Assembly: GCF_021513135.1 (NCBI RefSeq)
Contig: NZ_CP090981.1
Span: forward strand, 1,426,001 to 1,490,000
Direction of reading: 5' to 3'
DNA length: 64,000 nt
Source of the DNA: Vibrio sp. SS-MA-C1-2
GTDB taxonomy: Bacteria; Pseudomonadota; Gammaproteobacteria; Enterobacterales; Vibrionaceae
The position numbers and the translations under genes were made by a program. Under the pieces are notes generated by a model. The model did not search any database and was not told the origin of the DNA. It saw only the letters and a list, made by a program, of their open reading frames with translations. Positions within the stretch are counted from its first letter, which is position 1; each line of letters opens with the position of its first letter. Positions 38,623 to 46,576 of the stretch are shown here, piece after piece.

Positions 38623-38650
38623 AGTAGTTACAAAACATTTTTAAATATTA

Positions 38651-38679
38651 AAAACAGACCCATTGAGTCTGTTTTTTTA
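38651..38679 (+). terminator. terminator after the MATE gene
   Basis: AAAACAGAC / GTCTGTTTT stem with a short loop and seven T. Confidence 0.85.
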
Positions 38680-38688
38680 TATCTGTTA

Positions 38689-38720
38689 TTGACCTTGAAG
38701 TTAACTCCAATGTTTAAAGT
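38689..38720 (+). promoter_or_regulatory. MerR-family-type promoter of zntA
   Basis: A -35 box TTGACC (38689-38694) and a -10 box TAAAGT (38715-38720) are separated by 20 bases, the over-long spacing typical of promoters driven by MerR-family regulators. The spacer holds an imperfect dyad CTTGAAGTT/AACTCCAAT. A ZntR-type regulator is expected, but no such gene is in the window. Confidence 0.7.
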
Positions 38721-38758
38721 GAGGATTCTTACGTTAAATCGCTTGAAGGAGTAAAACG

Positions 38759-40950
38759 ATGGGTAGCAAACAATGTCAGCATAATCATCAACAGATGACA
38801 GAGAAAAAACGGATATTTCAGAAGGACAAGCAACCCGTAGTTGGTTTATTAAAGGAATGGATTGTCCTAGTTGTGCGCAGAAAATTGAGAATGCCGTACT
38901 TTCTGTTGAGGGGGTTGAAGGTGCTCAAGTAAAGTTTGCAACAGAGAAGTTAGTGGTGAGCTTTTCTGACTATAATGATGAAGCTGAACTTGAGATAAAA
39001 AGCGTCGCAAAAAGTTTAGGTTTTCAGTTTTTAGAGACTAAATCGTCGATGAGCAGAGAAAATGATAATGGCTCTAAACGTCACTTTATTGATAAATACC
39101 GAGGGATCCTCTCTTATACTCTGTTTGTCATCATCGCTTTCTTCTGTTCATTGTTCTCTGACAAGTTAGGAAGTATTACATTTATTGCTGCAACATTATG
39201 GGGACTCTATCCCGTAGGCAAGAAAGCGATCAGTTTAATTAAAAGTGATACCCCGTTTGCTATTGAAACCTTGATGAGTGTGGCTGCGATTGGCGCACTT
39301 TATTTGGGGGAAACGGCTGAGGCGACTTTAGTGCTATTGCTCTTTATGATTGGAGAGCAATTAGAAGCATTTGCAGCGGGACGAGCTCGTCAAGGGGTTA
39401 AAGCCTTAATGGATCTGGTTCCAGAAGAGGTAGATAAAGTCGTCGATGGAGTAAAAACACGTGTTGCAGCCGAGTCATTAATTCCAGGTGATATTATTGA
39501 AATCTCTCCAGGATCCCGATTACCTGCTGATGGTTTGCTCTTTGATACCTATGCCAGTTTTGATGAGAGTGCATTAACAGGGGAGTCACTGCCTGTTGAG
39601 AAAAATATTGGCGATAAAGTGATGGCAGGAGCAATGGTTGCCGATCGTGTTGTTCAGATAAAAATTGTCTCTGAGCAAGGAGAAAATGCCATTGATCGTA
39701 TTCTGCACTTAATTGAAGAGGCTGAACTCAGAAAAGCACCACTTGAACGATTTATTGATAAGTTTAGTCGTATTTATACGCCAATGATGATGGTGTTAGC
39801 GTTAATGGTTGTGATTATTCCACCTTTATTATTTGGTGGTTTGTGGGATGTTTGGCTCTATCGTGGATTGACTCTACTATTAATTGCTTGTCCTTGTGCC
39901 TTGGTTATCTCAATTCCTGCTGCGATTACATCAGGGTTAGCGGCAGCAGCAAAACGGGGTGTTTTGATTAAAGGCGGAGCAACACTAGAGCAGATTGGTA
40001 ATATTAAAAATATCGCTTTTGATAAAACAGGGACTTTAACCGAAGGTAAACCAATCGTGACTGATCTTAATGGCTGGGGGGTTTCTGACGATCAATTGTT
40101 AGCGGATGCAGCGGCTGTTGAGATGGGGTCTCATCACCCTTTAGCTCAGGCGGTCATTAATCGAGCAGAACTGCAATCAATCAACGTTGTTGAGGCTGAG
40201 GAGCGAGAAGTCATTGTTGGTAAAGGCATTCAAGGTAAGGTGAATGGCGTACTGTTACGACTCAGTGCCGCTGATCGTCTACCTGAAGGTGTTGAGTTAT
40301 CTGAGCAACAGCAGGCTGAGGTGATTAAGTTGGAGTCACAAGGAAAAACATTGGTTGTTGCACTCTATGGCAATATCGGACAACAAATCATGGTAATGGG
40401 TGTAATTGCGTGGCGAGATGAGATCCGCTCAGATGCTAAGCAAGCCATTAAACAGCTAGATAGCATGGGCGTTAATTCTATTATGTTAACGGGAGATAAC
40501 CCAAGAGCGGCACACGCCATTGCTGATGAATTGAATATTGAGTTTAAAGCAAGCCTACTTCCTGAAGATAAAGTTCGTTATGTTCAAGAACTGACAGAAA
40601 AAGAGTCAACGGCCATGGTAGGGGATGGGATTAACGATGCACCTGCGATGAAAACGGCGACAGTCGGTATTGCAATGGGCGGTGGAACAGATGTCGCATT
40701 AGAAACTGCAGATGCAGCGATCACTCATAATCGAGTATCTGAACTCTCATCGATGGTGAAGTTATCACAAGCGACGCTTACGATTATTCGACAAAATGTC
40801 ACCATTGTATTAGGGTTAAAAGGGCTATTTTTAGTGATGACACTTTTTGGAATGGTAAGTTTATGGATGGCGGTATTGGCAGATACTGGTGCAACAGTGA
40901 TAGTGACAATGAATGCATTAAGGCTACTGAAAATTATTGATGATAAGTGA
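38759..40950 (+). CDS. zntA: Zn/Cd/Pb-exporting P-type ATPase, ZntA, with apparent -1 frameshift near the start
   Basis: This P1B-type ATPase exports Zn2+, Cd2+ or Pb2+ from the cytoplasm. From 38857 an unbroken frame encodes an HMA metal-binding domain (GMDCPSCAQKIE), the TGES segment, the CPC metal site, DKTGT (40021-40035), GDGINDAP and DTGATVIVTMNALRLL, the last typical of the P1B-2 subgroup. The only good ribosome site (AAGGAG) serves the ATG at 38759, which opens MGSKQCQHNHQQMTEKK in another frame. A shift of -1 at the A6 run 38804-38809 joins this to TDISEGQATRSWFIKGMDCPSC, restoring a normal ZntA start. The ATG at 38857 has no usable ribosome site and would cut the HMA domain. An indel, sequencing error or programmed shift are all possible. 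Confidence 0.88.
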
Positions 40951-45773: not shown

Positions 45774-45808
45774 GCGTCCTGTTCCCAAACGGAACTAAGT
45801 AAAACAAA

Positions 45809-45882
45809 GGCGCGTTGGCAGAGTGGCTATGCAGCGGATTGCAAATCCGTGGACCTCGGTTCGACTCCGGGACGCGCCTCCA
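45809..45882 (+). tRNA. tRNA-Cys (GCA), first copy
   Basis: Full cloverleaf of 74 bases with acceptor GGCGCGT/ACGCGCC, anticodon GCA in GGATTGCAAATCC, T-loop GGTTCGACTCC and encoded CCA. Confidence 0.97.
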
Positions 45883-45908
45883 ATTTCTTTTTAAGAAATG
45901 GTATTTAA

Positions 45909-45984
45909 GCGACACTAGCTCAGCTGGTAGAGCGCGACCTTGCCAAGGTCGAGGTCACGAGTTCGAACCTCGTGTGTCGCTCCA
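45909..45984 (+). tRNA. tRNA-Gly (GCC), first copy
   Basis: 76 bases with acceptor GCGACAC/GTGTCGC, anticodon GCC in CCTTGCCAAGG, T-loop GTTCGAACC and encoded CCA. Confidence 0.97.
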
Positions 45985-46063
45985 AATTAAAGAAGTATTG
46001 ACTATTCAATATTTCAAGATGGTGTCTGACTAACATAGTTAGGTGCATCGCAAAGAATTGCGT

Positions 46064-46150
46064 GCCCTGGTGGTGGAATTGGTAGACACAAGGGATTTAA
46101 AATCCCTCGGCGTTCGCGCTGTGCCGGTTCAAGTCCGGCCCGGGGCACCA
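46064..46150 (+). tRNA. tRNA-Leu (TAA), first copy
   Basis: 87 bases with acceptor GCCCTGG/CCGGGGC, anticodon TAA in GGATTTAAAATCC, long variable arm (CGGCGTTCGCGCTG), T-loop GGTTCAAGTCC and encoded CCA. A CGCAA-AGAA-TTGCG hairpin stands directly upstream. Confidence 0.97.
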
Positions 46151-46188
46151 TCTAATTTGCTAAATTATATTTAGCGAATAAAAAATAA

Positions 46189-46262
46189 GGCGCGTTGGCA
46201 GAGTGGCTATGCAGCGGATTGCAAATCCGTGGACCTCGGTTCGACTCCGGGACGCGCCTCCA
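46189..46262 (+). tRNA. tRNA-Cys (GCA), second copy
   Basis: Identical to the copy at 45809-45882 over all 74 bases; first gene of the duplicated cassette. Confidence 0.97.
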
Positions 46263-46287
46263 ATTTCTTTTTAAGAAATGGTATTTA

Positions 46288-46363
46288 GCGACACTAGCTC
46301 AGCTGGTAGAGCGCGACCTTGCCAAGGTCGAGGTCACGAGTTCGAACCTCGTGTGTCGCTCCA
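46288..46363 (+). tRNA. tRNA-Gly (GCC), second copy
   Basis: Identical to the copy at 45909-45984. The spacer to the next tRNA is 36 bases longer than in the first cassette. Confidence 0.97.
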
Positions 46364-46478
46364 AATTAAATCGTTATTGTCTTTTGATGATAATGAAACT
46401 AAATAAGAAGTATTGACTATTCAATATTTCAAGATGGTGTCTGACTAACATAGTTAGGTGCATCGCAAAGAATTGCGT

Positions 46479-46565
46479 GCCCTGGTGGTGGAATTGGTAG
46501 ACACAAGGGATTTAAAATCCCTCGGCGTTCGCGCTGTGCCGGTTCAAGTCCGGCCCGGGGCACCA
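46479..46565 (+). tRNA. tRNA-Leu (TAA), second copy
   Basis: Identical to the copy at 46064-46150, preceded by the same ~65-base leader. The cluster ends with a terminator directly after it. Confidence 0.97.
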
Positions 46566-46576
46566 TCTATTAAGAA

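Follow-up and report, generated by a model that had tools for sequence, protein, structure and literature searches.

The split in the zntA gene of Vibrio sp. SS-MA-C1-2 very likely reflects the loss of one adenine from a run in the assembled sequence, one instance of homopolymer deletions that recur genome-wide, with the gene itself intact in the cell. I infer that the error lies in the sequence file and not in the organism that was sequenced. Positions below are those of the window, the whole 64,000-nucleotide stretch of DNA that was analysed, unless a contig is named.

As assembled, the ZntA reading frame is not intact from its Shine-Dalgarno-led start codon. An upstream frame of 57 codons (MGSKQCQHNHQQMTEKKRIFQ...) opens there, the ZntA frame lies at -1 relative to it, and the two meet at a run of six adenines (A6) flanked by G on the 5' side and C on the 3' side (Table 1). 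The zero frame at the run reads GAG AAA AAA CGG, and a -1 move after the run gives ACG GAT ATT TCA (TDISEGQATRSWFIKGMDCPSC). A Markov frame model trained on the strain's own genome and run at a low frameshift penalty placed a -1 switch at 38802. About 15 codons from 38759 onwards thus look coding, and the split goes beyond chance. Codons 1-17 of the upstream frame (MGSKQCQHNHQQMTEKK) are probably the N-terminus of ZntA, the remainder being out of frame. The ZntA frame has 24 open codons 5' of 38857 and no ATG, GTG or TTG among them, and at 38857 an AAGGA runs straight into the ATG, leaving no room for a spacer. A first-pass annotation, made from the sequence alone, had described the Shine-Dalgarno site and the ATG opening a frame, the -1 relation at the A6 run and the want of an earlier standard start, all of which hold in the sequence, the frame model placing its switch at the same junction.

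The downstream part of the gene encodes 697 aa without a stop and is highly conserved, with up to 63% identity to related Vibrionaceae proteins. NCBIfam model PRK11033 names it ZntA, at 1057.5 bits where the cut-off is 1005; the match spans profile positions 50-729 of 731, the 49 N-terminal positions being absent because of the frame break; the score against the stricter model NF033775 (912.2) falls below its cut-off of 1240. In the same NCBIfam search the upstream 57-codon frame had no match and no HMA domain. Two more metal P-type ATPases with several HMA-like repeats are encoded elsewhere in the genome (L002 and L004, at C3:99440-100933 and C1:322115-323701), one of them on a 218-kb replicon.

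Table 1. Features of the zntA locus (window positions) and homopolymer frame breaks elsewhere in the assembly (contig positions)
Feature	Position	Strand	Basis or remark
T-tailed, terminator-like hairpin 5' of zntA	38650..38676	+	sequence
MerR/ZntR-type operator-promoter TTGACCTTGAAGTTAACTCCAATGTTTAAAGT	38689..38720	+	20/21 consensus positions
Shine-Dalgarno AAGGAG	38746..38751	+	sequence; 7 nt ahead of ATG 38759
Upstream frame, ATG 38759, 57 codons (57-aa ORF)	38759..38932	+	sequence and frame scan
A6 run, one base short, site of the -1 frame loss	38804..38809	+	sequence and frame scan
ZntA frame, zinc/cadmium/lead P1B-type ATPase	38785..40950	+	open up to the stop at 40950
nrdB, -1 break at T7 (A7 on + strand)	C2:1399984		L080, also L192; outside the window
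ispD, break at C6/G6	C2:177428		L180; halves match consecutive parts of Pfam IspD
fadH-like 2,4-dienoyl-CoA reductase, three breaks, each G6	C2:1264414, 1264682, 1265648		L073
purH, break at A7 or C6/G6	C2:363463
tolC-like, break at A7 or C6/G6	C2:271400
barA-like, break at A7 or C6/G6	C2:188359
yoaA-like, break at A7 or C6/G6	C2:1362248
CrtC/AttH lipocalin, break at A7 or C6/G6	C2:1536222
yeaH, break at A7 or C6/G6	C2:1253771
Further candidate breaks (-1) on or close to G8, A7, G6, G7	C2:1398203, 1563389, 201854, 342888 (approximate)		low-penalty scan alone; positions are those of its frame switches

The signals ahead of the upstream frame support 38759 as the biological start of zntA, since a predicted zinc-responsive promoter of the MerR type, the Shine-Dalgarno sequence and the ATG stand there together. 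The MerR/ZntR-type site is the sole match of such quality within the window. Its consensus was modelled in part on the E. coli zntA promoter and was built with the site at 38689-38720 in view; independent support comes from the relatives, where 60 of 63 related zntA loci have such an element upstream, in most of them about as far away, with scores of 17-21 against 16 at most for shuffled upstream DNA.

The same relatives show how the N-terminus is usually encoded. In 62 of the 63 loci, all outside the host genus and with two genomes counted twice, the ZntA frame runs unbroken back to a Shine-Dalgarno-led start, and the split arrangement is therefore not one that relatives keep; the one locus that departs from this is only partially matched and belongs to Serratia symbiotica, a reduced symbiont (L040). 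The related proteins begin with a His/Cys-rich extension of 46-174 residues in a single frame, which makes it fair to call the peptide before the break His/Cys-rich, as was done at first pass. The present locus shares with known ZntR-regulated ZntA systems (PRK11033) the sequence of the whole core, a single HMA domain with MDCPSC, the ZntR-type promoter and the presence of His and Cys in the N-terminal extension. It is unlike them in that its N-terminus is one base out of frame as assembled and in that the joined extension is short, with 33 residues before MDC.

Breaks of the same kind recur through the assembly. In 800 kb of it, 11 further -1 breaks were found across nine conserved genes, every one inside a homopolymer, whereas 1.6 Mb of a relative (G084) yielded no comparable set; G084 is Photobacterium-like, a placement taken from the resemblance of its ZntA to that of P. 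ganghwense. An initial frameshift test on 59 orthologs had found no breaks, an outcome that changed with a larger sample. When the 400 kb around the window were compared with G084 proteins by tblastn, three of 154 orthologs proved to be broken, namely fadH (three times), yeaH and nrdB, each break being -1 and lying exactly at G6 or T7, and the reverse comparison for that stretch, of G084 against the strain's own proteins, found none. A second 400 kb of the assembly, with 55 testable orthologs, gave no broken genes and just a match to a tRNA cluster, and the reverse comparison there gave one candidate break in G084. Two apparent breaks, one per 400-kb stretch, were discarded as tRNA clusters. 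Within the window itself, positions 45785-46568 of the + strand hold tRNA-like repeats that read as overlapping ORFs (ALAEWLCSGLQIRGPRF..., LVVELVDTRDLKSLGVRAVPVQVRPGAPS); this is apparently a tRNA array, which gives spurious ORFs in relatives too.

A Viterbi frame-switch scan, which is independent of any relative, was run over the 800 kb and over the 1.6 Mb of G084. Many of its switches were discarded as gene-overlap junctions. Switches at runs of at least six bases made up 8 of 18 in the strain's assembly, all of them -1 and inside genes, and 3 of 40 in G084, in contexts like ordinary gene junctions. The genes struck were fadH, nrdB, ispD, purH, a CrtC/AttH lipocalin gene and yoaA-like, barA-like and tolC-like genes (the yoaA-like and barA-like names being a reading of the sequences by eye), and at a low penalty the scan recovered zntA and all three fadH breaks. 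In Pfam, the second half of ispD takes up the family model where the first leaves off, as it does for purH and for the CrtC gene, and both halves of the tolC-like efflux gene belong to the OEP family.

Two of these genes should be needed by the cell. The genome has no Ribonuc_red_sm locus besides the broken nrdB, and no full IspD besides the split ispD, since its two remaining IspD matches are partial and weak. An aerobic gamma-proteobacterium in which nrdB and ispD were both truly broken is not expected to grow. Because these single-copy and presumably needed genes are broken, the simplest account is that the assembly rather than the organism is short of bases. What would mark a homopolymer artefact, the same breaks in other conserved or essential genes with a bias to deletion, is what was found, and the suggestion at first pass, that the split is most simply explained by a one-base indel or an error of sequencing, gains its support from these many -1 breaks in conserved genes of the same assembly.

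The breaks also depend steeply on run length, a pattern expected of miscalling. By inferred length, and counting coding runs, breaks fell in about one of 169 A/T runs of the zntA class, a rate that rests on that single case and on a tally in which terminal breaks are harder to detect, and in about seven of 28 A/T runs one base longer, a count that takes in one A7 candidate from the scan alone; among G/C runs, six of nine look short. Of the breaks found, zntA alone lies at A6, and every other one in an A/T run lies at A7. It is in line with the trend, one case in 169 being what miscalling would allow, yet it is the least typical member of the set. Long runs did not prove to be grossly shortened across the board, A/T runs of seven being as common as in G084; only G/C runs shift from seven towards six, and A/T runs of eight are somewhat low. 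Systematic Nanopore errors are mainly homopolymer indels, which shift reading frames (PMC8011154), and the present genome, assembled in three contigs, has in common with long-read assemblies that suffer homopolymer deletions both the lack of single bases from A/T and G/C runs within conserved genes and the strong dependence on length.

The chief rival is a real and recent one-base deletion in the strain's own A run, a spontaneous slippage mutation that would deprive zntA of its normal start and largely inactivate it. I consider this unlikely, and give it the weight I do because zntA is the least typical break and has the shortest A run: its A6, where the other A runs are A7, fits the error trend worst of all. 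Such a mutation would also be viable in zntA, which is dispensable without metal stress. However, the same signature in single-copy, presumably essential nrdB and ispD means that the assembly very probably does contain errors of this type, and zntA beyond the break is intact, with high conservation. There is only a very slight chance that many genes, among them nrdB and ispD, genuinely carry one-base-short runs that the organism tolerates through slippage of RNA polymerase or ribosome, with zntA one of many recoded genes; slippage at homopolymers has been proposed for some reduced endosymbiont genomes. Equally improbable is translation of ZntA from the ATG at 38857, or from a rare start such as ATT in the ZntA frame, with the upstream ORF as a leader peptide. 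Although 38857 is the first standard start codon in that frame, its AAGGA leaves no spacer, the promoter, Shine-Dalgarno sequence and ATG form a set at 38689-38761, and relatives extend N-terminally in frame from a Shine-Dalgarno-led start and keep the strand before the CxxC motif (SWxVxGMDCPSC) that a start at 38857 would remove.

Recoding at the run, whether ribosomes are programmed to shift by -1 on GAG AAA AAA CGG or transcription slips there, would yield full-length ZntA together with a 57-aa short product, and was raised at first pass on the model of copA. In E. coli, copA, a related metal ATPase gene, is a known case in which a -1 shift gives a putative copper chaperone of about 70 residues with the first metal-binding domain, while the CopA pump itself is read in the zero frame and needs no shift (PMC5009743, PMC6747150). 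The zntA locus shares with copA and CopA(Z) the type of gene, a metal P1B ATPase, and the -1 direction, and a tRNA-Lys in the P site could re-pair on AAA one base back, with CGG as the next zero-frame codon. In zntA, however, it is the pump that could not be made without the shift, the short product lacks an HMA domain, and the arrangement is absent from relatives, which makes the analogy weak. The heptamer G AAA AAA fails the X XXY YYZ rule for tandem slippage because G precedes the A run, so a single P-site tRNA could slip at most; the 101 nt downstream of A6, in a search for a stimulatory structure among pseudoknot-free folds, fold no better than shuffles (z 0.16); and unrelated genes show breaks of this type too, whether the run is of G, T or A. 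With relatives unsplit, copA-like recoding thus finds no support here, and I judge it highly improbable.

The split of zntA is real in the file, but the organism itself most probably does not have it. On the reading preferred here, a deletion in the assembly, zntA would be an ordinary intact gene with a ZntR-controlled promoter, a Shine-Dalgarno sequence, an ATG at 38759 and a continuous frame to 40950, its product carrying residues of TDISEGQATRSWFIKG joined to MTEKK and comprising a short N-terminus with His and Cys, a single HMA domain and the P-type ATPase core; the assembly would show a pattern typical of insufficiently polished long-read assemblies. The parts examined hold about one homopolymer frame break per 50-70 kb, which calls for caution, and claims of a frameshift, pseudogene or recoding made from this assembly should wait until the reads have been consulted. 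Real breaks would make the organism a striking example of essential genes rescued by slippage.
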